Translations under genes and position numbers: made by a program
Origin: JAZDEY01 sp043808325 [NCBI: Candidatus Eiseniibacteriota bacterium]
GTDB taxonomy: Bacteria > Arandabacterota > Arandabacteria > Arandabacterales
DNA: 57,227 bases
Direction of reading: 5' to 3'
Assembly (NCBI GenBank): GCA_043808325.1
Contig: JAZDEY010000061.1
Span: 1 to 57,227 of the forward strand
In this document: positions 38,015 to 49,928 of the stretch, piece after piece
Layout of the letters: every line of letters starts with the position of its first letter
Position numbering within the stretch: position 1 is the first letter of the stretch
The notes under the pieces: generated by a model
What the model was told of the DNA's origin: nothing
Databases searched by the model: none
What the model saw: only the letters and a program-made list of their open reading frames with translations

Positions 38015-38839
38015 TCACTCCCACTTGAGGCTCTTGCGTTCGGCATCCGAGAGCTCGTCCCCGCTCGCGTCCTTGGCTCCGCCCTTGGTCCTCAAAATAT
38101 CGTCGTAGCTTCTTCTGACGATGTCGAGCACCGTACCCAGAGTCCTCTCGTCCTCGATCCGCTTGGTGGTCCACTTGCCGGGCCCCGATTCAATCCATAT
38201 CGTGCCCCGGTGGCTCCTCAAGTTGGCCACTGGCACCCAGTCAAGCGCCTTGCTGCGATAACCGACGGAGGCCGAAACCTCGAGCCCCTCCGCGATACCT
38301 ACCAGATCTGTGACGGTTCGTGAGAGCAGACCGACTTCGGCAACGTCAGTCCTGAGCTTCTCCTCGGCCTTCTCTCCGGGCCTCACCTTGATCTGAGGAA
38401 GCCCGACCACCTCCATGTATAGGCCCTTTTCCATGCCGATCCCCAGGCACTTGAACTCATAGCACATCTTGGGATTGACATTGAGCATCGATGCCAGGAC
38501 AAGAATGTGAGGGCTAAAGCTCTCCGCCATAAGCACAATGCCGGGTTCGCAGGTCCAATCAAACTTGGGGTTCTCCCGGGCCAACCGTTCTCTGTTGTGA
38601 GCGAGCCAAGCGATGTGTCTGCCAAAGCTCATCACCAGGCTGTCGCCGGACTTCTCCTTAGCTGCAACGACAAAGACCCTGCCGTCGCCGTCACCCGCCA
38701 GAAAACCCATCTCATTATCATCGGTGGAGAGAGCTATCTCATCGATAACGCTAAGTCCTTTTATCTCTCCCTCGAGCGCCTCCTTGACCAGTGTTATCAG
38801 CTCCTTAGAGCTTGCAATCTTCCTTTTTTCAATGCGCAT
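38015..38839 (-). CDS. NucS/DUF91-like protein with altered nuclease core
   Basis: A 274-residue soluble protein. Residues about 28-145 follow the layout of the NucS/DUF91 PD-(D/E)XK nucleases: a strand with a hairpin (GFLAGDGDGRVFVVAAKEK), a helix ending in IAWLAHNRERL, then GIVLMAESFSPHILVLASMLN. In active members the core reads DLLA...VVIELK; here the Asp is Gly and the Glu is Ala, so only the Lys seems kept. That suggests loss of nuclease activity. The rest is not recognised. It overlaps the MinD-like gene by 43 bases and has GGAGGGAGGTGA upstream of its ATG. A DNA-binding or structural role beside two ParA-type ATPases is inferred. Confidence 0.55.
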   Translation of the reverse strand: MRIEKRKIASSKELITLVKEALEGEIKGLSVIDEIALSTDDNEMGFLAGDGDGRVFVVAAKEKSGDSLVMSFGRHIAWLAHNRERLARENPKFDWTCEPGIVLMAESFSPHILVLASMLNVNPKMCYEFKCLGIGMEKGLYMEVVGLPQIKVRPGEKAEEKLRTDVAEVGLLSRTVTDLVGIAEGLEVSASVGYRSKALDWVPVANLRSHRGTIWIESGPGKWTTKRIEDERTLGTVLDIVRRSYDDILRTKGGAKDASGDELSDAERKSLKWE

Positions 38840-39867
38840 CTTTCGAAGGTCACCTCCCTCCTTCTCTTCGCGATTGCGGACTCGTCCATCACGATGAGTC
38901 CGAGGATCCAGTCAATGCCCTTGCCTGCCTTCGAGTCAGGAAACGCTCTCAGCAAAGGGACTTCTCGTTCATAGGCTTCATTCACCATGGCATCATCAAG
39001 AACATAGCCATAGTTCCTGAGGTTTATTTTCAGGAATTTGCGACAGACTTCCATCAGCTTTCTGAAACAGTCTTCCCCTTCAGCATAACTCCTAACCAGA
39101 TTTATTACAAGCCCTATTCTGGCGTTTGGTGCGGCGGAGTGAATCCGCTTTATTGCGACATATGAAGCCTTGAGCTTGTCTGAACCGGGCTCGGTCACTA
39201 CCATCACCAGGGTCGCGATACCCCAAATGGCGCGGCTGGGTTCTCCCCAAGGAGAGGTATCGATTACCACCCACTGGGCTTCTCTTGCAGCAGCTTCTAT
39301 CACCGCGAGAGATGAGATCGGAAGCGTCGAGGCCCCGGGTGGAGAGGCGATCTCCGCTGCAGGAAAGACCGCAATGCCGGGAGAGTCGCCCGGGCCGGGC
39401 TCCATCAGGCCGCGCTCCGTCGCAGCGAGGATATCCACAGCCACAACCGAGCCATAGCTCTCATTGGTGGTAACGACGGCCCCCATGTTCCGGCCGGCCG
39501 CGCTGCCCACCCTGCTCGTGGGGGAACTGCCGGTTATGTCGAGCACATCCGGCCTCTCAGCATCAGCGTTGACCAGAGCCACCTTGCAGCCCCTGGCGAA
39601 AAGCCCGTAGCCGAGGCTGGCCGCGAGAAAGGTCTTGCCTCTGGTACCCTCCCCCGAGGTGATGCTCAGGTATGCGGCCTTGGGCAGCCACAGCCCGGGA
39701 ACTTCTGCGGACTCGCTCACAGCGGGGCTCTCATCAGGTGCAATCGGAGGTCCTTGCGCGGCGCCTTTGCGCTTTTCCGCGCCGGAGAGAAACAGATGTG
39801 ATACTTCGGAGAGGCCTCGACCGAGCTTCCTGGCCGGCTTTACGTCATCGGCGTCTTGACCCGCCAC
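38797..39867 (-). CDS. MinD/ParA-like ATPase with altered Walker A
   Basis: A 356-residue SIMIBI-class P-loop protein. After a Ser/Pro-rich leader (1-60) comes YLSITSGEGTRGKTFLAASL. The usual deviant Walker A of MinD/ParA is KGGxGKT; here it is EGTRGKT, so the signature lysine is Glu (position 73). Further motifs are VALVNADAERPDV in place of LLIDxDxQ, and WVVIDTSPWGEP for the DxPP-like switch. The FlhG/MinD-like C-terminal helices follow. Loss of the signature Lys would affect dimer-dependent ATP hydrolysis. Only one base separates it from the ParA-CBM48 gene, and it overlaps the NucS-like gene, so the three are made together. Confidence 0.75.
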   Translation of the reverse strand: MAGQDADDVKPARKLGRGLSEVSHLFLSGAEKRKGAAQGPPIAPDESPAVSESAEVPGLWLPKAAYLSITSGEGTRGKTFLAASLGYGLFARGCKVALVNADAERPDVLDITGSSPTSRVGSAAGRNMGAVVTTNESYGSVVAVDILAATERGLMEPGPGDSPGIAVFPAAEIASPPGASTLPISSLAVIEAAAREAQWVVIDTSPWGEPSRAIWGIATLVMVVTEPGSDKLKASYVAIKRIHSAAPNARIGLVINLVRSYAEGEDCFRKLMEVCRKFLKINLRNYGYVLDDAMVNEAYEREVPLLRAFPDSKAGKGIDWILGLIVMDESAIAKRRREVTFERCALKKGRLQALRS

Positions 39868-39868
39868 C

Positions 39869-40960
39869 CTACTTCACCACCACTACGGAGTTCTTACCGC
39901 TGTGGCTGTCGTCCACACTGATAGGATTCAACGGGTCCGGCTTCCACTGGCCGTCAACAATGAACTTGTACTGATAGACTCCGGAGTCAAGACTGGCAAT
40001 CGCAACCCAGATCCCGTCCTCGTCATCATCGTTCATCACTATCGGTTCCGCCCATTCGTTAAAGTCGCCTGTCAGTTCAACCTGGTTTGCCCCCGGGGCC
40101 TCGACCGTGAAAAGGATTCCCCCCGGCACGGGCCTAGGACCGTAGATCTCTTTCTGGGGGACGGGCAGCCCGACCTGCAGGGCTTCCTCCACCTTGACCT
40201 GGTCCTCCTCGGCCACAACCTCCTCGGCCAGGGCCAGATACTCCTTGAAACCCCTTGAATGTCGGTCGTAATCGGTGATCGGCGTGCCGTGGCTTGCAGC
40301 CTCGCGCAATTTCACATTGTTGTGGATCAAAGTCCTGTAAGTTCGCTCCTCAAAGTGCTTCAAGATGTCTTCGACGATCTCGGCTGAGAACTTGGTTCTG
40401 CCGTCATACATAGTGGACAGCACCTTGAGCCTGAGGTCGTGCGAGGTCTCCTCGCGGACAAGGTCGATCATATCCAGGAGCCTGCCCACTCCCCAGAGCG
40501 AGAAAAAGCTGCCCTCGATCGGGATCATCGCTTCGTTGCAGGCCCTGAGCGCATTGAAAGTCAACAGTCCAATGCTCGGCGGGCAGTCCACGATGACATA
40601 GTCATAGGTGCGGGCCAGCGAACGCAAGGCCCCCATCAGGCAGTTCTCCCGCCCGGGCATACCTGCCATCTTCTGTTCAAACGCACTCAAGAGGATGCCC
40701 GACGGCGCAAGGTCAAAGGACGGCCGGACTTCCCTTATGATCTTCTCCACGCCTATCTCGCCGAGCATCACCTCATACATACACTGCCCGGTCTCCTCCA
40801 GCCCGATACCGACACCGGCCGTGGCGTGCGCCTGAGGGTCAAGGTCAACCAGAAGAACGTTCCGGCTCTTAAGCGCAAGACAGGCCGAGAGATTTATCGC
40901 AGTGGTCGTCTTGCCGCAACCACCCTTCTGGTTCACAATCGCTATCGTTCTCATAGCCAT
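39869..40960 (-). CDS. ParA-family ATPase fused to a glycogen-binding CBM48 domain
   Basis: Residues 1-250 are a ParA/Soj ATPase with deviant Walker A QKGGCGKTT (11-19), LLVDLDPQAHAT and VDCPPSIG. Residues about 281-363 are an AMPK-beta-type CBM48: LTGDFNEWAE, a long acidic loop, VYQYKFIVDGQWKPDP and KNSVVVVK. By alignment with mammalian AMPK beta, the four glycogen-contact residues Trp100, Lys126, Trp133 and Asn150 are all kept (Trp303, Lys332, Trp339, Asn357). ParA proteins position plasmids, chromosomes or large cargo on the nucleoid, while CBM48 binds alpha-glucan. The inferred job is to tether or distribute glycogen-like granules. No ParB is adjacent. It follows the flavin-reductase gene by 33 bases. 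Confidence 0.9.
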   Translation of the reverse strand: MAMRTIAIVNQKGGCGKTTTAINLSACLALKSRNVLLVDLDPQAHATAGVGIGLEETGQCMYEVMLGEIGVEKIIREVRPSFDLAPSGILLSAFEQKMAGMPGRENCLMGALRSLARTYDYVIVDCPPSIGLLTFNALRACNEAMIPIEGSFFSLWGVGRLLDMIDLVREETSHDLRLKVLSTMYDGRTKFSAEIVEDILKHFEERTYRTLIHNNVKLREAASHGTPITDYDRHSRGFKEYLALAEEVVAEEDQVKVEEALQVGLPVPQKEIYGPRPVPGGILFTVEAPGANQVELTGDFNEWAEPIVMNDDDEDGIWVAIASLDSGVYQYKFIVDGQWKPDPLNPISVDDSHSGKNSVVVVK

Positions 40961-40993: not shown

Positions 40994-41494
40994 CTAATAG
41001 TATCTTCCCACTGACTCGCCAATCCTGTAATAGCCGCCCCTGTGCAGAACCAGCGGTCTCTTCTTAGGATCGATATCAAGCGCCGCTACACGGCCGACAA
41101 ATATGGTGTGGTCGCCTATCGATATGGCTTTCTCGAGCTTGCATTCCATCGTCACTGCGGCACCCTCCAAGACCGGAGGACTTATCGTATTCGAGGGTCT
41201 GGGCTTCAAGAGGCCGGAGGCGAACTTGTCCAATCTGCGTCCCGATGCGGTGCCGGCGTGTTGGGCAAGCTCCATCTGATCGTCCGCCAGGATACTGAGA
41301 CCAAACTCCTTGGTTTCCATCACGAGATCATGGGTGTACCGCTGTGGAGCGATATGCACAACAACAAGGGCGGGCCGGTGGGAGACCGGAATCGTCCAGG
41401 CCGCAGTCATTGCATTGACGGTGTCGCCGCGCTTTACAGTGACGATCGCGACTGACTCAGCAAACTCACCGGTCACCTTGCTCAGATCTTCCAT
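40994..41494 (-). CDS. Flavin reductase-like FMN-binding protein
   Basis: A 166-residue split-barrel flavoprotein. ATG at 41494 is chosen because AAGGAGGGG stands directly upstream; a longer frame to 41602 lacks a site and crosses the promoter. FMN-binding motifs VNAMTAAWTIPVSHRPALVVV and the later FGLSILADDQ are recognisable for the flavin_reduct family (each under 21 residues as quoted). HTIFVGRVAALDI is also typical. It could supply reduced flavin to a partner or be a high-molecular-weight rubredoxin-type oxidoreductase, but no partner is seen. A promoter with an overlapping inverted repeat precedes it, and it is first in the transcript that runs into ParA-CBM48. Confidence 0.87.
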   Translation of the reverse strand: MEDLSKVTGEFAESVAIVTVKRGDTVNAMTAAWTIPVSHRPALVVVHIAPQRYTHDLVMETKEFGLSILADDQMELAQHAGTASGRRLDKFASGLLKPRPSNTISPPVLEGAAVTMECKLEKAISIGDHTIFVGRVAALDIDPKKRPLVLHRGGYYRIGESVGRYY

Positions 41495-41516
41495 CGCCCC
41501 TCCTTGACGGGTTGTT

Positions 41517-41528
41517 CTCACTTGTGAG
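41517..41528. promoter_or_regulatory. Possible operator over the flavin-reductase start site
   Basis: An inverted repeat CTCAC-TT-GTGAG lies immediately downstream of the -10 box at 41530-41535, where it would cover the predicted transcription start. A repressor bound there would block the transcript leading into ParA-CBM48. Confidence 0.35.
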
Positions 41529-41529
41529 T

Positions 41530-41557
41530 ATTGTAGCGAGGTCGGCAAATCAGTCAA
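41530..41557 (-). promoter_or_regulatory. Sigma70 promoter of the flavin reductase/ParA-CBM48 unit
   Basis: Minus strand TTGACT (41552-41557), 16 bases, TACAAT (41530-41535). The start would be near 41523, some 29 bases before the ATG at 41494. Confidence 0.6.
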
Positions 41558-41602
41558 GCATAATTGAGGCAGTTGGCAAAGCACGGTAGCGATCGACGGC
41601 AC

Positions 41603-42595
41603 TTAGACCAGCTTCGCCAGGGTGCTCGCTGCTTCCTCGGGGGAGACAGGATTCAGGTGGAAGCCTCCGCTTTCGACGAGGCCGCCGAGGACGCTGATGC
41701 AGGGATCGATCTCGATGTGCCAATGGTAATCGAGATCGATGGTCTTCCATGCGTCAGCCTTGGGCCTGCGGAAGGGTGCGGTGTGCAAAGTGAGAACGTA
41801 GCCGTCCGACTTCGCGAGCTTCTCTATGCCGGTGGTCAAGCGCTTGAGAAGATTGGCCAGGCTGCGAAGCTCGTCGTACGACGCGGTGTGGAAGTCGGGT
41901 GAATGCCTTAAGGGAACGATCCACATCTCAAAGGGAACCCGGGCCGCATAGGGCGATAGGGCGACCATGTGGCTGTCTTCACAGATCACTCGAGATCGAG
42001 TCTTTCTCTCCTGAAGCATGTAGTCGCAGAAGACGCATCTCTCCTTGAAGCTGAAGTACTTGCGGGAGGCATTCAGCTCGTGTTTGATCAGGCCCGGCAC
42101 AAACGGCGCCGAGACGATGTGCCACCGCGGATGCAGGGGATGGTCGCCGCCGCGCAATGTGCGGACCTTGAATGGAAGCACGTGTTTGAGTCTCGGATCG
42201 TCGCCGAGATCCACGGCGCGCCGGCGAATCGTATCCAGGACCGAAAAGATCTGATCCTCCTCAAGACCCTCAAACTCGACGTCGTGGGAACGGCTTTCGA
42301 TCACGATCTCGTGGGCCCCGATTGCCTCCATCCTATCGCAGATGCCGACACCCTTCTTGCCGAAGTCGCCTTCAATGTGGAAGATTGGAGGCGAGCCGGC
42401 CACCACTCGTAAGGTCCAGTCTGAACTGCCGCCCCCGCCATGGCCGTTGAGACGGAATATCTCCTTGCCCGTGAGCGCCTCCCGGCCGGGACAGTAAATG
42501 CACCCGTTGCCCGTCTCGTCGGCAAGCAGCCCGCTCTTTTCCGGGCAGATTACGACCCAGTCGCCCGAAAGGGGATGTCTTCTCAGTTCGGCCAA
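41603..42595 (-). CDS. Galactose-1-phosphate uridylyltransferase-like protein, active site altered
   Basis: A 330-residue HIT-superfamily protein resembling GalT. TTG at 42595 is taken as start because GGGAGGAT lies seven bases upstream and MAELRRHPLSGDWVVICPE is the normal GalT opening. Two CxxC pairs occur (CIYCPG, CVFCDYM) as in zinc-binding GalT, and the C-terminus has DYHWHIEI and GFHLNPVSPEEAA. Where GalT has HPHxQ, with the nucleophilic His, this protein reads HPRWH (within DHPLHPRWHIVSAPFVP). The usual NHGxxAGAS stretch before it is also absent. It may use another residue or another nucleotide sugar. It lies just upstream of the flavin reductase/ParA-CBM48 unit. Confidence 0.75.
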   Translation of the reverse strand: MAELRRHPLSGDWVVICPEKSGLLADETGNGCIYCPGREALTGKEIFRLNGHGGGGSSDWTLRVVAGSPPIFHIEGDFGKKGVGICDRMEAIGAHEIVIESRSHDVEFEGLEEDQIFSVLDTIRRRAVDLGDDPRLKHVLPFKVRTLRGGDHPLHPRWHIVSAPFVPGLIKHELNASRKYFSFKERCVFCDYMLQERKTRSRVICEDSHMVALSPYAARVPFEMWIVPLRHSPDFHTASYDELRSLANLLKRLTTGIEKLAKSDGYVLTLHTAPFRRPKADAWKTIDLDYHWHIEIDPCISVLGGLVESGGFHLNPVSPEEAASTLAKLV

Positions 42596-42620
42596 GCGAT
42601 ATCCTCCCGCATGGGCCTGG

Positions 42621-42752
42621 TGCAATCTGCATGCCACAGAGAGCGCGACCCAACCCATGTCACCGGATGCTCTTAGCGGACGAAGCGCAATCTAAAAGGT
42701 CTTGCCGGATAGGTAGAAAGCTGCAAAATGCGAGGGTTGAGTGCAATCTGCA
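42621..42752. repeat. Two 11-base direct repeats upstream of the GalT-like gene
   Basis: TGCAATCTGCA occurs at 42621-42631 and again at 42742-42752, both in the non-coding space upstream of the TTG start at 42595; a shorter GCAATCT occurs near 42688. They could be regulator sites or chance. Confidence 0.3.
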
Positions 42753-42817: not shown

Positions 42818-45800
42818 CTACCGCGCGCCCGCCTCGACCTGCTCCCTCGCCTTCATGCCTCTTGAAAGGCTGAACTGAATCGCCTGGTACATAAAGGCCT
42901 CAAGTCTCGTGAGCGTATTGGTCTGCTCGAGGCCATCGTAAGCCATCGTGAGGAAGGGCACGTTGTCCAGATCCTGCCGCACCTTCTTCATCACACCGCT
43001 CACGACCGTTCCCGGCATACACGTAAACGGCATCACATTGATGATGCCGCTTGCACCCTTTCGGACAAAATCAATGGCCTTGCCTATGCTCAGCACCGCC
43101 TCGCCTTCGAAGCTGTCGTGCACATATGGGAGGCTCAGCTTTATCACGTCTTCGATCAAGGGTTCATGGAGATTCTTGATCGCACCCTCGAAGATCTTTG
43201 CCATCTTGTGCTCGTCCTGCTTCTGGACCTTGTCTTTGATCACGGTGAGGAGCCACGACTTGTAGTCCTTGCGCACCAGATTGCCGCGCTTCCTGGTGAC
43301 ATTGGTGTAGAGGATCCACTCCGTAAAGGGTGGCATCCAGGCTTCGCCGCCCAGCCGCTCGACCTGGGCAACGATGTTGTCGTTACTGAACCGATTGCAC
43401 CGGACAAAGACCTCGCCCACAATCCCTATCACGGGCCGCTCGTCGGACCGGTCGATCGGGACCTTGAGCATTTCCTCTTTGCATTCCCGAAGAACTTCAA
43501 AAATATCCTCGCCATTAAGTATGCCGTCACACACGCGGTGGATGCCGGCCCAGAAGGCCTTGTCGGTCTCGCCCTTGTTCTTCTCATAGGGCCGGCGCTG
43601 ATGGAGCAGCTTCTCCAGGAGATCCGCCGCCAGGAGACCCCGCCAGCCGATCCGGTCGAAGTTGCGGGCGACCTCGCCGATCTCGTTGTAGAACTCCCTC
43701 CCCTGATTGGGCGATATTATAGGCACTTGTTCCTTGCCCAGCTGCTTGAGGACCATTCTCTGGAGCTTATTGTACTGACCGAAACGGCAGGGGCCGCTGC
43801 CTGATGGCATGAAGAAAGCCGATCGCTCGGGGTCAAACCCCGGCTCCATCACCTTCTTCACCATGTCTCCGGTGGTGACGATGCACGGGTAACATTCCTT
43901 ACCGGAGGTGAACCTTCTGCCATATTCCAGCGTCTTGGCGTCCGACTCGGGCAACACCTCGGCCTCGATCCCGGCTCGCGTGAAGGCCGCTGCAAACGGG
44001 TACGCGTGCGGTGACATGTTGGGGATGTAAAGCTTGCGTCCCCGGCGAGTGCTGACTCCCGACAGGCGGGCAGAGTCGTCGGTCACATCCCTGTCATGGT
44101 GGATCTCGACTACCCGCGCATGTTCCAGGCTATCCAAGAAGGCCTCGCATCGCGTTATGGCGCCCACATCGGCGCTGTGCTCATCGATCTCGATCTGCAG
44201 ATAGGGCTTCCCGCCCATCTTCGCTCGGAAGAAATGCATGATGAAGGAGTCGGGCCCACACCCGAAGTTGGTGATATAGATCGCAAACAGCCGCTTATCC
44301 TTGCGGATGATCTCGGCCGCCGACATGATTTTCTGCCCGTAACGCCAGTACATGTTCTCCCATTCCTGCGCAAGGTCGACCGAATCAATCGGCAGATAGT
44401 CTAGCGGCATCGGCAATGCGCCCAGGTCTCTAAGCTTCTTGGGAAGCTCGAGGTTGATGCCGTTGTCGCAACCGTTATAGGGTCGGCTCACGATGACAAA
44501 AGCACGGCCGTTCTCGCCGAGCCCGGCAAGCACCTCTTCCCCACGCTTTCTCAAGGCCTCGTAGTATCTGTCCTGCGCCAGGAATGCGGCATCGACCGCC
44601 TTCCGGATCTGGCCCTGGCTCTTGCCGAGTTCGCGGCCGACCTGCCTCAGACACTTGACCACCTCCGCCTTGCCGCGCGCAAGATAGACGTGGGGCTTCA
44701 AGATCTTGATGCCGGCTTTCTCAAAGTCAAAGGCCGCACTGGCGAAGTACGGGATCGTCTGGACGTAGGGGCAGGCGAAGCTCTGCTCGATGTGAGGGCT
44801 CCGCTTGCGGAGATTTATGATGCTCGGCAGGAAGATGTAGTCGATCTTCTTGCCCATCAGATTGAGAATGTGGCCGTGAGCGACCTTGACCGGGAAGCAG
44901 GTCTCCGCCGGAACCGATTCTATTCCGGCGTGAATGATCTTCTTGTTGGTCTTGTCGGAGAGCACAACCTCGACGCCCAGATTCTTCAAGAAGGCATGCC
45001 ACAGCGGGAAGGTCTCGTGGAAGAGTAAGCTGCGTGGCACGCCGACTCGGCGAGGGTCCGCCTTGACGTCGGGGCCCGGCTCCACGTAAAGCGTGGTCAA
45101 AAACTTCTCGCGCTCCGCAAAAAGGTCGGGAATATCCTTGGCCCTGGACTCCTTCTTCTCCACGTCGTACTTCTCGCATCTCGAGCCGTAGTAGAGAGGC
45201 TTCTCACCCTCGACCAGGACCTGCCTGATCTCACACATATTGGCGCAATCTTTACATTCGAAGCTGGTGATCTCGTACTTCTTCTTGCTTAGGTCGAAGC
45301 CCTTGAACTTGCTCTTCTTGCCCTTGTTGGCTTCCAGCGCAAGCACCGCGGCTCCGATCGCGCCGGTTACGTCCGCGTGCTCGGGTACGGTAATCTTCTT
45401 GCCGGTGACCTTCTCAAACGCCGCCACTACCCCGTCGTTGGCCGCAACGCCGCCCTGGAAGAAGATGTGGTTGCCGACCCGCTTGCTGGCGACGACCTTA
45501 TTGAGATAGTTGGCCACGATCGAATAGCTGAGGCCCGCTATCAGGTCGTCCCGTTCGGCGCCCTTCTGCTGATGGTGAACCAGGTCGGACTCCATAAACA
45601 CGGTGCATCGCTCACCGAGGCGAACGGGATTCGGCGCACTGAGCGCCCGGTCGCCGAATTCCTCTTCGATCTTGATATTGAGCTTTTCGGCCTGCTCTTC
45701 AAGGAAGGAGCCCGTGCCTGCCGCGCAAACCTTGTTCATCTCAAAGTCCACCACCGCTCCGTTCTCGAGGCTCACGTACTTGGAGTCCTGGCCGCCGATC

Positions 45801-47137
45801 TCAAAGATGGTGTCCACCCGCGGGTCTATGTCGGCGGCACCCTTGGCCTGGCAGGTTATCTCATTCCTCACGATATCCGCACCGACAAAGTCGCCGGTGA
45901 GATAACGTCCCGAACCGGTGGTGCAGACGCCGCAGACCTCGATATAGCCTGCGATCTCACCGCCCACTATCTCAAGTCCCTGGCGCACCGCCTCGATAGG
46001 CCTGCCGGCCGTCATGAGGTACGTGCGCGCAAGGATTCTTCGCTCTTCATCTATTGCGACCACGTTGGTGCTTATCGATCCGACATCGATCCCGAGATAC
46101 GCCCTTATCTTCTTTGACTTGTCGGCAGGGACATACACCGGCTTCTTGCGACGGTGCTTATAGAGCCGCTCTTCCTCGAGAGACAGCCTGGCAAGGCCCT
46201 CTTCCTGACCGGAGTGGTAGCTGACGTAGTCTTCCATCTTCTCCAGCGATAGTGTGCCCTCCCGCTCGGCGCCCTTCGCCAGCGCAGTGAGCCCGGCCCC
46301 GATCGCCCCCATAGAGGCAAAATGCTCGGGAATCACCAACCCGCCCTTCTCAAGCTCGAGCACCTCCTCGAAGGCCCTGACCATGCCCTTGTTGGCTGCG
46401 ACGCCGCCCTGGAACGAGACCGGCTTGAGGAATTGCTTGCCCTTGGCGATGTTGCTCTTGAAATTGCGGGCCATGGCAAAACACAGCCCTGCCACGATAT
46501 CGTAATCGGGTGTCGCTTCCTGCTGGAGATGGATCATATCGGTTTTGGCGAAGACGCTGCACCGGCCCGCGATCCTTGGCGGGTTCTTGGACTTGAGGGC
46601 CATCTGCCCGAATTCCTCGATGCTGACCTCGAGACGGCTCGCCTGCTGATCAAGGAAGGAACCCGTTCCCGCAGCGCAGATGGTATTCATCGCAAAATCC
46701 TTGATCAGGGTGGCCCCAAGCTCCTTGTCGTATTCCACAAGGATCAGCTTGGAGTCTTCGCCGCCGATCTCGATCACCGTCCTCACGTCGGGATGAAGCT
46801 TCTCCATCGCCTTTGCCTGGGAGATGATCTCGTTCACGAAGAAGCCGTCAAGAAGATCCGAGAGAATCTTGCCGCCGGAACCCGTGACCGCCACCGCCTT
46901 GAAGGTCCCGGGCGGATAGCGCTTGAAGAGGTCGTTGAGGACCTCGAGCGATGTCTCCATCGGAAGTCCCTTGGTTCTAGAGTAGCGCTCCTCGAGAAGA
47001 TCGCCTTCCAGGCAAAGCACAACCGAGTTCAAGCTCACGGAGCCAAGGTCAAGCCCGAGCACATATCTCCGGGCTGCATCTTTCACGCGATTGGTGTCTT
47101 GCGGCCCCACGGACATCTTCCGAATTGCCTCCGACAT
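42818..47137 (-). CDS. Tandem BcrAD/BadFG-type dehydratase activase with DUF2229 and HgdB-like regions
   Basis: A 1439-residue protein. Residues 24-300 and about 345-625 are two ASKHA ATPase domains (YVLGLDLGSVSLNS, AYLGIDVGSISTNV). Each carries the two cysteines that in HgdC hold a [4Fe-4S] cluster across the dimer: Cys154/Cys193 (ICAAGTGSFL, AGRCSVF) and the equivalent pair in the second domain (VCAAGTGSFL, GERCTVF), so one polypeptide may form a pseudo-dimer. The DUF2229 region follows (GVPRSLLFHETFPLW), then an HgdB-like part with GKECYPCIVTTGD. CKDCANMCE is a further Cys cluster. Such fusions are ATP-driven low-potential electron donors, for example to double-cubane proteins. GAGGAGG precedes the ATG. 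It lies 17 bases after the GH57 gene. Confidence 0.88.
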   Translation of the reverse strand: MSEAIRKMSVGPQDTNRVKDAARRYVLGLDLGSVSLNSVVLCLEGDLLEERYSRTKGLPMETSLEVLNDLFKRYPPGTFKAVAVTGSGGKILSDLLDGFFVNEIISQAKAMEKLHPDVRTVIEIGGEDSKLILVEYDKELGATLIKDFAMNTICAAGTGSFLDQQASRLEVSIEEFGQMALKSKNPPRIAGRCSVFAKTDMIHLQQEATPDYDIVAGLCFAMARNFKSNIAKGKQFLKPVSFQGGVAANKGMVRAFEEVLELEKGGLVIPEHFASMGAIGAGLTALAKGAEREGTLSLEKMEDYVSYHSGQEEGLARLSLEEERLYKHRRKKPVYVPADKSKKIRAYLGIDVGSISTNVVAIDEERRILARTYLMTAGRPIEAVRQGLEIVGGEIAGYIEVCGVCTTGSGRYLTGDFVGADIVRNEITCQAKGAADIDPRVDTIFEIGGQDSKYVSLENGAVVDFEMNKVCAAGTGSFLEEQAEKLNIKIEEEFGDRALSAPNPVRLGERCTVFMESDLVHHQQKGAERDDLIAGLSYSIVANYLNKVVASKRVGNHIFFQGGVAANDGVVAAFEKVTGKKITVPEHADVTGAIGAAVLALEANKGKKSKFKGFDLSKKKYEITSFECKDCANMCEIRQVLVEGEKPLYYGSRCEKYDVEKKESRAKDIPDLFAEREKFLTTLYVEPGPDVKADPRRVGVPRSLLFHETFPLWHAFLKNLGVEVVLSDKTNKKIIHAGIESVPAETCFPVKVAHGHILNLMGKKIDYIFLPSIINLRKRSPHIEQSFACPYVQTIPYFASAAFDFEKAGIKILKPHVYLARGKAEVVKCLRQVGRELGKSQGQIRKAVDAAFLAQDRYYEALRKRGEEVLAGLGENGRAFVIVSRPYNGCDNGINLELPKKLRDLGALPMPLDYLPIDSVDLAQEWENMYWRYGQKIMSAAEIIRKDKRLFAIYITNFGCGPDSFIMHFFRAKMGGKPYLQIEIDEHSADVGAITRCEAFLDSLEHARVVEIHHDRDVTDDSARLSGVSTRRGRKLYIPNMSPHAYPFAAAFTRAGIEAEVLPESDAKTLEYGRRFTSGKECYPCIVTTGDMVKKVMEPGFDPERSAFFMPSGSGPCRFGQYNKLQRMVLKQLGKEQVPIISPNQGREFYNEIGEVARNFDRIGWRGLLAADLLEKLLHQRRPYEKNKGETDKAFWAGIHRVCDGILNGEDIFEVLRECKEEMLKVPIDRSDERPVIGIVGEVFVRCNRFSNDNIVAQVERLGGEAWMPPFTEWILYTNVTRKRGNLVRKDYKSWLLTVIKDKVQKQDEHKMAKIFEGAIKNLHEPLIEDVIKLSLPYVHDSFEGEAVLSIGKAIDFVRKGASGIINVMPFTCMPGTVVSGVMKKVRQDLDNVPFLTMAYDGLEQTNTLTRLEAFMYQAIQFSLSRGMKAREQVEAGAR

Positions 47138-47154: not shown

Positions 47155-48777
47155 CTATCCCCTTGCTGCCGTCGCAATTGCAGTGTATGCGTCCGCATAT
47201 ATCCGGTAGTCAAGCTCGGGGAAAATGTTGTCTCTTCCCTCCACATCGCTGAGCCAGTTTATGTCGATTGTTCCATGTCTCAGGTCATCGTAGAGCTTCT
47301 TGAACCTGCCGATGTGTTCCTTGGTCCGCCTCGACGCATAAGCAACCGCCGTCCCGGTCTTCATTATGAATGCCCAGTCGCTGCCTTGGGCAAGCAGCAG
47401 CTCCCGTGCCGCCTGCTTCAGCGCCCGCGCCCGCACCGGGTCCCCCATATCGCCGTCGTTGGCCAGCTCCACCATCCTGTCAGCGGCCCAGTGGAGGTGC
47501 CGATAGATCCAGTCGTTCGACCCTTCCAGCCAGACCTCGCTATACCCCTTCCACCCCCAGCTTGAGAGCGAGGGGGTGGCCACCTGGTTCCGCGGATGTC
47601 GGGCGAGGTACCCGGATGGAGTGATCAGACTGAAGAGGTTCTGATCATAAGCGCATTTCCTGATCAGGAAATCAAGCCACTGAGGGCCTTCGAACCACCA
47701 GTGCCCGAAGAGCTCGGCGTCATATGGCGCAACTATTATGGGTTCCCTCCCCAGGAGATCATTGAGGTGCCTTACCTGCTGCTCTCGGTTGAACATGAAG
47801 TTGCCTGCATGAGCCGCGGCCTTCTCGCGAGCGATGTCGGGCTCATAGGGCTCCTTGTGATCCCCGCGGCCCGTTATCCTGTAATACTTGATTCCCGTAT
47901 ACACCCTGGCGCCGCCGCCGTGAAGATATGGTTTAACATAGTCGTACTCAAGATCGAATCCGACATCCCGGTAGAAATCCCGATAATAGAAGTCACCCGG
48001 GTACCCCTCCTGAGCACTCCACACCTGCTTTGAGGATTCCATGTCGCGGCCGAAAGCCGCCACGCCAGTAGGGCAATAGATCGGAGCAAAAACGCCGTAG
48101 CGCGGTCTCGGGCTCGCATGCAGAATGCCATGTGTATCGGTGAAAAAGAACTTGATCCCCGATTCCTTGAGTATCTCGTCGATCCCCGGCTCATACCCGC
48201 ACTCAGGCAGCCAGATTCCGTTGGGCCGCCGGCCGAAGTTCCGCTGATGATATCGGCACGCGATCTCGACCTGAGCTCTTACGGCATTGCGGTTCACGGT
48301 CATCAACGGCAGGAATCCGTGAGTTGCCCCGCAGGTGGTGATCTCGACATGCCCGGCATCGTTCAACCGCCTGAAGACCGATACCAGGTCCCGTGAATAC
48401 TTCTCGGCATAGGTCTTCCGGGTATTCTCGAAGAACCAGTAGTACATCAGGGCAAGCCGGTTCATTCTAGCATCCCACCGCGTGCGGTCGACCTCCTTTG
48501 ATGCGAGCTCCGTCAGTTTCTCCAGTCGGCTCATGTATCGCTCCTGGAGCACCCAGTCGTTAAGGAGCGAAAGGAGCGGCGGGCTTAGCGAAATCGTTAT
48601 GCCGTAGGGGACCGAGTCTTCTTCCAACTTCTCAAGAACCTTTAAGAGAGGCATGTATGTTTCTGTTATTGCTTCAAATAGCCAATCCTCTTCTAGGAAG
48701 TCAGGATATTCCGGATGCCTGACGAAGGGCAGGTGGGCATGAAGCACAAGACAAAGATAGCCTTTAGACTTCTTCAT
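47155..48777 (-). CDS. GH57 1,4-alpha-glucan branching enzyme (DUF1957)
   Basis: A 540-residue GH57 enzyme that makes alpha-1,6 branches in glycogen-like glucan. The N-terminal LVLHAHLPFVRHPE, the nucleophile Glu192 in GIWLPECGYEPG and the acid Asp353 in APYDAELFGHWWFEGP match the Thermus and Thermococcus branching enzymes (Glu183 and Asp354 in the latter). The C-terminal DUF1957 helical domain (WIYRHLHWAADRMVELA) is present and there is no signal peptide, so it is cytoplasmic. It lies between the DUF4912 gene (26 bases upstream) and the activase gene (17 bases downstream). Confidence 0.92.
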   Translation of the reverse strand: MKKSKGYLCLVLHAHLPFVRHPEYPDFLEEDWLFEAITETYMPLLKVLEKLEEDSVPYGITISLSPPLLSLLNDWVLQERYMSRLEKLTELASKEVDRTRWDARMNRLALMYYWFFENTRKTYAEKYSRDLVSVFRRLNDAGHVEITTCGATHGFLPLMTVNRNAVRAQVEIACRYHQRNFGRRPNGIWLPECGYEPGIDEILKESGIKFFFTDTHGILHASPRPRYGVFAPIYCPTGVAAFGRDMESSKQVWSAQEGYPGDFYYRDFYRDVGFDLEYDYVKPYLHGGGARVYTGIKYYRITGRGDHKEPYEPDIAREKAAAHAGNFMFNREQQVRHLNDLLGREPIIVAPYDAELFGHWWFEGPQWLDFLIRKCAYDQNLFSLITPSGYLARHPRNQVATPSLSSWGWKGYSEVWLEGSNDWIYRHLHWAADRMVELANDGDMGDPVRARALKQAARELLLAQGSDWAFIMKTGTAVAYASRRTKEHIGRFKKLYDDLRHGTIDINWLSDVEGRDNIFPELDYRIYADAYTAIATAARG

Positions 48778-48803: not shown

Positions 48804-49928
48804 CTACTCTTCAGTCTTCTTGGTCACTATCGAGGTAATGGTTCGTGTCTCTTCTCCGTCTTTCGATACCGCAACCGCCGGAATCACTTGCTCCCCGTCC
48901 GGCAGCGCGAACCTGACACTGAAGGTGCCATCCGGTGTCAACTTGACCGGCCGTCCCTGCAGCGTTACCGTTGCGTCCGGCTCGGTCGCTCCGTAGACAA
49001 TAAGCTCCGTCCCCACCCTAAACCAGAAACCACGGACTCGTGGTTTGCCGATCGGGCTCGAAACAGCAAGACTCCCGACGGCTCCCGAACCCATCTCACC
49101 ACCAAGAGCTTTCTCCATCATCTCTTTAAGCTCCAGCGAACTGGCGCCGATCGCGAACCCGCCTGAGAGCGCATAGACCTTGTCAAACTCACTATCGGGA
49201 ATCATCCACCTCTCGTCGACCACATCGGACGGAGCGTCCCGCGGAGTGGTGGCGGCGTTTGACCGTGCAAGCAACACGAACCTGCCCGACCGCGAAAGCA
49301 GCCCGATATCGACACAGTAGGTCCTGTTGGGAACATGCGTATTGATGTACCAGTTGGTGGCCCCGCCTTCCAGGACTATGTCAAAGTGGGAATTGGAATT
49401 GTCGCCGTCAAAATCGACCCCCGTCACGTCGTGGACCCGCAGGATCGACCTGGCATCGTACCATTCATCCTTCAAGACTCCCTTGGCTCTCAACAGAGTC
49501 TCCCTGGAGATATCCCAATAGACATGCACCCAGTAGGGATCTCTTATCAGAAGCACGATTCGGTCGTCACCGTAGGATGCCGGAATGTCGGGAGCAAGCG
49601 AGGTCGTCTCAACCCGCTTGGGAGGCTTGGCCGCATCGGGCTCCAGCTTGGCCTCATACTTGGCGCGCTGGATCACGGCCTGCTGCTCGCGCCAGCTTCT
49701 TCTGACAAGAATCTTCTCTCTTACAGGCGCGGCCCGCTTCTTAGCCTGCCTGGTGACCCCGGGCTTCGCCGGCTTTGCAACGCTCGCCGTCCTCCTCTTG
49801 GGGCCGGCCCCAAGGATCGCCTTTACCAGGTCGCCCTTCTTCATGGCGGTGCGGCCCGGTATACGCCGACCGGCGGCGATTTCAAGCAGGCCTTTCTTTG
49901 TCTTCGCAAGAAGATCCTTCTTCTTCAT
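48804..49928 (-). CDS. DUF4912 protein with Rho-N/SAP-like N-terminus
   Basis: A 374-residue protein. The N-terminal 45 residues (LLAKTKKGLLEIAAGRRI, AMKKGDLVKAIL) form a SAP/Rho-N-type helical domain that usually binds nucleic acid. After a basic linker comes DUF4912 (IVLLIRDPYWVHVYWDIS, ILRVHDVTGVDFDG, NRTYCVDIGLLSRSGRFVLLARSN). The C-terminus is Ig-like (TVTLQGRPVKLTPDGTFSVRF). DUF4912 genes are often next to GH57 branching enzymes, as here, but the function is unknown. Combined nucleic-acid-binding and glucan-linked features parallel the ParA-CBM48 fusion. It is first in its transcript, behind a good promoter. Confidence 0.85.
   Translation of the reverse strand: MKKKDLLAKTKKGLLEIAAGRRIPGRTAMKKGDLVKAILGAGPKRRTASVAKPAKPGVTRQAKKRAAPVREKILVRRSWREQQAVIQRAKYEAKLEPDAAKPPKRVETTSLAPDIPASYGDDRIVLLIRDPYWVHVYWDISRETLLRAKGVLKDEWYDARSILRVHDVTGVDFDGDNSNSHFDIVLEGGATNWYINTHVPNRTYCVDIGLLSRSGRFVLLARSNAATTPRDAPSDVVDERWMIPDSEFDKVYALSGGFAIGASSLELKEMMEKALGGEMGSGAVGSLAVSSPIGKPRVRGFWFRVGTELIVYGATEPDATVTLQGRPVKLTPDGTFSVRFALPDGEQVIPAVAVSKDGEETRTITSIVTKKTEE

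Follow-up and report, generated by a model that had tools for sequence, protein, structure and literature searches.

ParA-type ATPases are motors that place DNA and carboxysomes, and bacterial chemoreceptors are placed by motors of the same type; glycogen would be a new cargo. The stretch analysed here, the 57,227 nucleotides of contig JAZDEY010000061.1 of a Candidatus Eiseniibacteriota bacterium (hereafter the window), encodes on its minus strand (39869..40960) a Soj-type ParA ATPase fused to a carbohydrate-binding CBM48 domain of the AMPK beta type. AMPK is a eukaryotic kinase complex, and the glycogen-binding domains of its beta subunit are the closest solved relatives, by sequence, of the C-terminal domain of the fusion, which retains their contact residues, whereas the neighbouring domain here is a ParA. 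The chromosomal ParABS system (Soj/Spo0J) shares with the locus the ParA fold, the active site, the putative DNA-binding positions and the sequence L-G-R/K-G-L in the N-terminal tail of the downstream gene product. Unlike in ParABS, however, a cargo-type domain is carried by the ATPase, a third gene is present, and the tail continues as VSHLFLS rather than ALI. Since the partner proteins scanned contain no ParB domain, the fusion system is not a member of ParABS. The McdAB system of carboxysome positioning likewise dedicates a ParA-type ATPase to a cargo other than DNA, but according to the available portion of a 2025 review of organelle positioning (PMC13052382) its activator McdB sits on the cargo, whereas here it is the ATPase that bears the cargo-type domain. 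The same portion describes PhaM, PhaF, PhaH and AlgP, proteins by which a storage granule is linked to DNA, their polymer being polyhydroxybutyrate (PHB) or polyphosphate; it covers carboxysomes, magnetosomes, PHB and polyphosphate, and the word ‘glycogen’ is absent from it. No description of a ParA-CBM48 fusion or of a ParA machine for glycogen was found in the open papers of PubMed Central, in agreement with the initial annotation of this DNA, which had known of no ParA system for glycogen.

The fusion gene is an uninterrupted open reading frame (ORF) with an ATG start, encoding 363 amino acids with matches to nine Pfam families in all. The N-terminal half corresponds to AAA_31 (residues 3-177, E 1.9e-51), with an additional match to CbiA, and the C-terminal part to AMPK1_CBM (PF16561, residues 290-362, E 6.3e-16) and CBM_48 (E 1.4e-7); the AMPK1_CBM profile scored 58.8 bits, the curated cut-off being 26.8. 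The ATPase domain (40211..40954, minus strand; residues 3-250) contains the motifs KGGCGKT, DLDPQ and DCPPS, a deviant Walker A, the catalytic Asp41, presumed DNA-binding residues Arg188 and Lys217, and a presumed pocket for the tail of a partner protein. A sequence search identified the ParA/Soj structures 8ray, 1wcv and 6iub as its solved relatives, and Foldseek placed it on the Soj/ParA structures 9a6n and 8ray at 1.3-1.6 Å, with TM-scores by target of 0.94-0.95. The identity to chromosomal ParA/Soj amounted to 35-44% over the ten best structure matches, while BcsQ was a secondary match, far weaker than Soj. The CBM48 domain (39872..40114, minus strand; residues 283-363) carries W303, K332, W339 and N357, and was aligned by phmmer to the AMPK beta-1 glycogen-binding domain 1z0n (E 2.3e-10). 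An AlphaFold2 model of the fusion built with 40 aligned family members (mean pLDDT 89.6, pTM 0.70) consists of two mostly confident domains with a low-confidence linker (residues 259-270) between them.

Conservation was counted over 81 rows, comprising the 80 best loci of a species scan and the window. Residues K12, G13, G14, C15, G16, K17 and T18, forming the deviant Walker A with its signature lysine, are invariant in a 40-row alignment. Asp41 and Arg188, the arginine of the DxR motif, are present in 81/81 rows, and Lys or Arg occupies position 217 in 77/81; the matching arginines of Soj bind DNA. The positions of the CBM48 domain that presumably correspond to the glycogen contacts of AMPK beta are W303 (80/81), Lys or Arg at 332 (75/81), W339 (80/81) and position 357, which is Asn in 54 rows and Asp in the other 27, and hence Asn or Asp in all 81; all four contacts, with a strict Asn, occur together in 48 rows. 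The family thus retains the ATPase and putative DNA-binding positions as well as the contacts of the CBM48 domain; the latter would bind alpha-glucan and the ParA half DNA. The initial annotation had read a complete ParA motor and a complete CBM48 with Trp303, Lys332, Trp339 and Asn357; the motifs, Asp41 and the Soj fold confirm the former, and the latter is supported as well, the four residues being present in the window and largely kept in the 81 rows.

The species scan, with one genome per species, gave at least 568 stretches encoding a relative, of which the best 80 were analysed. Both domains occur in the same order in 79 of these 80 loci, the exception being L055, which has no CBM48; the search across genomes that the initial annotation had called for therefore leads to the rejection of its caveat that the domain pair could be an assembly artefact, and chance is rejected likewise. 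Judged from record titles and the tree, the fusion loci carry the labels Eisenbacteria, Auribacterota, Desulfobacterota, Rokubacteria, Planctomycetota, Latescibacterota, Zixibacteria, Acidobacteria, Omnitrophota, Myxococcota and Effluviviacota, about ten phyla in all. The nearest to the window among the best 80 are L001-L003 (62-66%), of which L002 is labelled Eisenbacteria. A full-length fusion was matched in at least 100 of 145 Omnitrophota genomes (103 after three more were read by eye) and in at least 10 of 198 Desulfobacterota genomes, the figures of 100 and 10 being lower bounds, as fusions with long linkers can escape that search. One record, L019 (CP070739.1), is titled Methanomassiliicoccales archaeon; its fusion falls within a clade labelled Desulfobacterota/Myxococcota and its branching-enzyme stretch is 89% identical to that of L021, so mislabelling or a chimeric record is possible.

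In a tree of 107 ParA domains built by maximum likelihood and rooted for drawing only, the 12 copies without CBM48 taken as Soj form one clade (support 100/99), and the fusion label requires 4 changes versus 20.4 expected after shuffling. Other relatives without CBM48 (L055, L102-L109 and L113) are scattered among the fusions, and three Omnitrophota fusions (L066, L110 and L111) adjoin the Soj clade (support 81/85). This pattern is compatible with an old fusion that has sometimes been lost, and more than one origin of the fusion is possible. In L102-L109, from Desulfobacterota, a C-terminal tail of about 80 residues, rich in acidic residues, replaces the CBM48. Six Omnitrophota genomes (G035, G042, G053, G122, G152 and G187) encode, in addition to a full-length fusion, a second ParA without CBM48 that is placed in the Soj clade; five of the six are clean, the G042 copy being long-branched and lying in a 377-residue frame. 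A ParB-family match above the cut-off was present in 17 of the 18 fusion genomes searched. The idea that the fusion is the chromosomal ParA is rejected in view of these second copies and ParB matches.

A single base separates the stop codon of the fusion from the gene of a partner protein (38797..39867, minus strand; 356 amino acids, GTG start), which consists of a low-confidence N-terminal tail and a degenerate FlhG/MinD-like domain. The opening of the partner contains ARKLGRGLSEVSHLFLSG, and the tail motif LGRGLSEVSHLFLS (39784..39825, minus strand; partner residues 15-28) is the proposed ParA-binding trigger. Downstream genes on the same strand and within 260 bases were collected from 44 loci and the window, with Omnitrophota clusters 3 and 7 set aside; the motif LGRGLxx[VI]SHxFLS was present in 37 of these 45 genes, across many phyla outside the main Omnitrophota group, and its position 3 was Arg or Lys in 35 of the 37 instances. 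The core LG[RK]G[LIF] occurred in 16/45 downstream genes versus 0/3633 other ORFs of these loci. The initial annotation had supposed that a self-contained cargo-binding domain removes the need for an adaptor; this is not supported, because the gene directly downstream bears a tail with a ParB-like core, a putative trigger.

The tail was also scored with a 14-position matrix seeded by the window motif and trained on the loci that it scored. An outside check on five later-fetched CBM48 fusion loci gave scores of 36.7, 27.5, 23.4 and 11.8, and none for the fifth; with the best unrelated null score at 17.0, three lie above it, one lies below and one is without a tail. A lone null ORF reached 32.1, the same score as a word in the partner of L058 itself, and is most likely the L058 partner gene missed by the simple gene caller. 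Among the relatives without CBM48, L055 has a tail-bearing neighbour (27.9), and the tail of the gene downstream in L107 is weak (14.9, under the null maximum); the downstream genes of L102, L104 and L108 have no tail by this matrix, and no downstream gene was called at L103, L105, L106, L109 and L113. Nine ParBs of the same genomes, picked by a crude pattern in 9 of 21 loci along with one false pick on the opposite strand, begin with LG[RK]G[LI], the next residues being ALI or closely similar. In the accessible part of a study of Myxococcus xanthus, the ParB tail (L11, R13, L15, L18 and I19) binds a hydrophobic pocket of ParA (PMC12462528). When the six ParA pocket residues mutated there were mapped onto the 81 fusions, counting L, I, V or F as hydrophobic, the positions of L150, L152, L155 and L187 proved hydrophobic in 81, 81, 79 and 76, respectively. 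The partner tail may bind the ParA half.

The bodies that carry the tail are diverse. A structure search assigned that of the window partner to a degenerate MinD/FlhG fold (4rz3, E 1.2e-15), and profile matches were limited to CbiA in Pfam and to MinD/BcsQ-type models elsewhere. It resembles FlhG/FleN in fold, but differs from them in a degenerate Walker A (GEGTRGKT) and in the added tail with the ParB core. Its AlphaFold2 model, based on 13 sequences, has a mean pLDDT of 74.0, and the low-confidence tail contains a short helix at the motif (residues 23-27). The partner in L021, a Desulfobacterota locus, combines a RodZ_C domain with weak helix-turn-helix (HTH) matches and a stretch resembling a transmembrane (TM) segment, and that in L041 has a PAS domain; of the nine partners from other loci that were scanned, seven had no Pfam match passing E 0.001, and a ParB domain was found by Pfam neither in these nine nor in the window partner. 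This points to reuse of the ParB trigger tail by unrelated bodies. An iterated partner profile drifted into ParA itself and its results were not used.

The partner is followed by a third gene (38015..38839, minus strand; 274 amino acids), whose product has no Pfam match and whose homologues also follow the partner in other loci. The alignment of these proteins hints at a possible nuclease-like core. An iterated profile yielded 21 strong homologues in the loci analysed, including that of the window, and four weaker ones, all adjoining the fusion; the profile stayed beside the fusion, with E-values that are inflated as the matches were absorbed into it. In four loci (L006, L007, L008 and L018) the third-protein domain is fused to the tail protein. 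A role in anti-phage defence was considered and rejected, as PADLOC matches to the fusion were weak (E 1.4e-4 or worse) and none were obtained for the partner or the third protein.

The main Omnitrophota group has no tail gene downstream of the fusion; directly upstream, 25 loci encode a protein which in 24 of them has a hydrophobic TM-like stretch. These proteins (L042 9415-9987 and 24 homologues) have an N-terminal YEHLAxIYLD (23/25), a Lys-rich run and an unnamed outer domain. They score at chance level with the partner matrix in all 25 loci, and a looser, post hoc pattern recovers YEHLAKIYLD-type tails in 23/25 of them versus 8/3633 null ORFs; one of the three null matches of the tight pattern (L064) belongs to the same family. 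The possibility that the upstream protein carries a related tail is suggestive only.

We propose, tentatively and at slightly under an even chance, that the three neighbouring proteins, probably co-transcribed, form an ATP-switched tether whose ligand is alpha-glucan, most likely glycogen, with positioning on the nucleoid and release by the partner tail. The CBM48 domain would hold the glucan, and the ATP-bound dimer of the ParA half would bind nucleoid DNA without sequence preference; glucan particles would thereby stay on the nucleoid and be distributed together with it. The LGRGLxxVSHLFLS tail of the partner would enter the pocket at the edge of the ParA dimer, which chromosomal ParA uses for ParB, and trigger ATP hydrolysis and hence release. 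The site of release would be set by the partner body, namely the degenerate FlhG/MinD-like protein in the window, the protein with a TM stretch in L021 and, less surely, that in Omnitrophota. The wider proposal, a widespread and old glycogen partition system in which ParA is its own cargo-binder and a separate trigger protein places a ParB-like tail on FlhG/MinD, membrane or other bodies, is possible and is held with greater doubt.

In the window, a flavin reductase (40994-41602, minus strand) directly upstream of the fusion is adjoined by a GalT-like gene (41603-42658, minus strand), which also occurs upstream in L001-L003. A GH57 alpha-glucan branching enzyme identified by Pfam (47155-48777, minus strand) adjoins a DUF4912/Glucodextran_B protein (48804-49928, minus strand), and L003 and L016, the latter from Omnitrophota, have the same pair no more than 10 kb from the fusion. 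In 16/80 loci the fetched flanks, of up to 10 kb, include GH57 or GlgB, as does the window, and GlgB adjoins the fusion in L019 and L021. Upstream of the fusion in Omnitrophota are found GH57 (12 loci) and an Alginate_exp porin family (16 loci), with one member of each scanned. Between the GalT-like and GH57 genes of the window, positions 42818-47137 (minus strand) encode a chain of 1439 residues with two BcrAD/BadFG stretches and DUF2229, of the CoA enzyme activase type.

Several results weigh against the proposed tether. The tail is missing in 8/45 downstream genes, and the nine ParB tails score at chance with the partner matrix (-10.4 to -2.9), so that the likeness to the ParB tail is confined to the LGRGL core. 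In the pocket, V116 is replaced by Gln in 70/81 fusions and L192 is mixed; the altered pocket may be what a private partner needs to avoid cross-talk. Relatives of the ParA half without CBM48 exist, both in the tree and among the fetched loci. The window and the fetched flanks of all 80 loci, extending up to 10 kb, contain no GlgA, and GalT, seen in three, was the sole sugar-related family among the 25 most frequent of 198 in a scan of 114 neighbour proteins; the scanned proteins, from L001-L016, L018 and L019, were drawn from 484 with at least 130 residues within 5 kb, being 114 of the 131 in the first of four chunks, from which 17, including all of L017, were dropped, and the ranking covers families seen more than once.

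The same holds for glycogen synthase. In Omnitrophota the synthase (PF08323, E<=1e-20) was present in 96/103 genomes with the fusion versus 32/42 without it (p 0.008, or 0.012 unless G058, G085 and G101 are counted as present after reading of their genes), but in the subset measuring 1.5 Mb or more the figures were 82/88 versus 21/24 (p 0.40); the association is not independent of genome size, because it is gone once genomes below 1.5 Mb are left out. In Desulfobacterota the synthase was found in 10/10 genomes with the fusion versus 149/188 without it (p 0.22). The co-occurrence with glycogen genes, which the initial annotation had named as a test, gives a weak signal that is lost among the larger genomes, and the synthase is not a neighbour. 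Across 47 fusion genomes, from 48 of the 80 loci less L021, PF08323 was matched at E<=1e-3 in 46 but at E<=1e-20 in just 34, and a GT3 synthase was found in none of the other 13. In these 13, GlgB matched at E<=1e-30 in six (two above the cut-off) and phosphorylase in one; GH57 occurred in 12, a figure without a comparison group, and a weak PF08323 lay beside a GH57 match in six (G017, G023, G025, in the same frame, G038, G041 and G045). Such pairs may represent a divergent alpha-glucan pathway. A strict linkage of the fusion to glycogen synthase is rejected, given the 34/47 genomes, the lack of a synthase nearby and the size-dependent association. Separately, PF08323 matches lie in Omnitrophota open frames of 21,950 to 57,099 residues (G131 contig C3, G135 contig C6 and G027 contig C10).

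The variety of partner bodies also suits regulation. As in AMPK beta, the CBM48 domain could report the alpha-glucan level to a switch, here the ParA, and the ParA-partner pair could regulate a target such as transcription, envelope growth or division with nothing being moved. FlhG/MinD-like, weak HTH with RodZ_C (L021) and PAS (L041) bodies, the name antiactivator given in PDB molecule names to the FlhG relative FleN, and the absence of a strict tie to glycogen synthase fit such a sensor. The ParA half, however, retains the DNA-binding positions of segregating ParAs and is closer to chromosomal Soj than to FlhG, and the core of the partner tail is that of ParB tails; we consider a sensor rather unlikely. 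Less probable still is a role of the ParA in placing machinery that handles a polysaccharide, for synthesis or export, or a glucan enzyme, as BcsQ does for cellulose synthase, with CBM48 docking on the nascent polymer. The secondary BcsQ matches and, in Omnitrophota, the upstream porin, GH57 and TM-like-stretch proteins speak for it, but BcsQ matches far more weakly than Soj and no export family occurs among the window neighbours scanned.

Finally, the identity to chromosomal ParA/Soj and the ParB core in the tail of the adjoining gene could indicate an ordinary ParA for chromosome or plasmid partition, with an incidental CBM48 and a diverged ParB as partner. This reading is disfavoured and appears very improbable, since the ParAs without CBM48 of the same genomes form the separate, well-supported Soj clade, ParB-family matches occur in nearly all of the fusion genomes searched, a ParB domain is absent from the partners scanned, and different phyla share the contacts of the CBM48 domain.

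The proposed tether would resemble PhaM and PhaF in having a granule end and a DNA end, with a ParA switch in addition and a trigger that recalls ParABS. That the location of glycogen can matter to the cell is indicated by an Escherichia coli csrA mutant in which, in the available part of the report, glycogen collected at the old pole keeps the chromosome out, and to this its authors attributed the stop in division (PMC4836754). If the proposal is true, the system would be the first machinery to segregate a polysaccharide store actively, and the usual layout, with the activator on the cargo, would be reversed. A reuse of the tail on unrelated bodies would bear on how ParA systems acquire new cargoes, and with a deep family spread over about ten phyla, most of them uncultured, the inheritance of storage polymers would become testable. 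Many little-known bacteria may thus hold and share out their sugar stores by machine.
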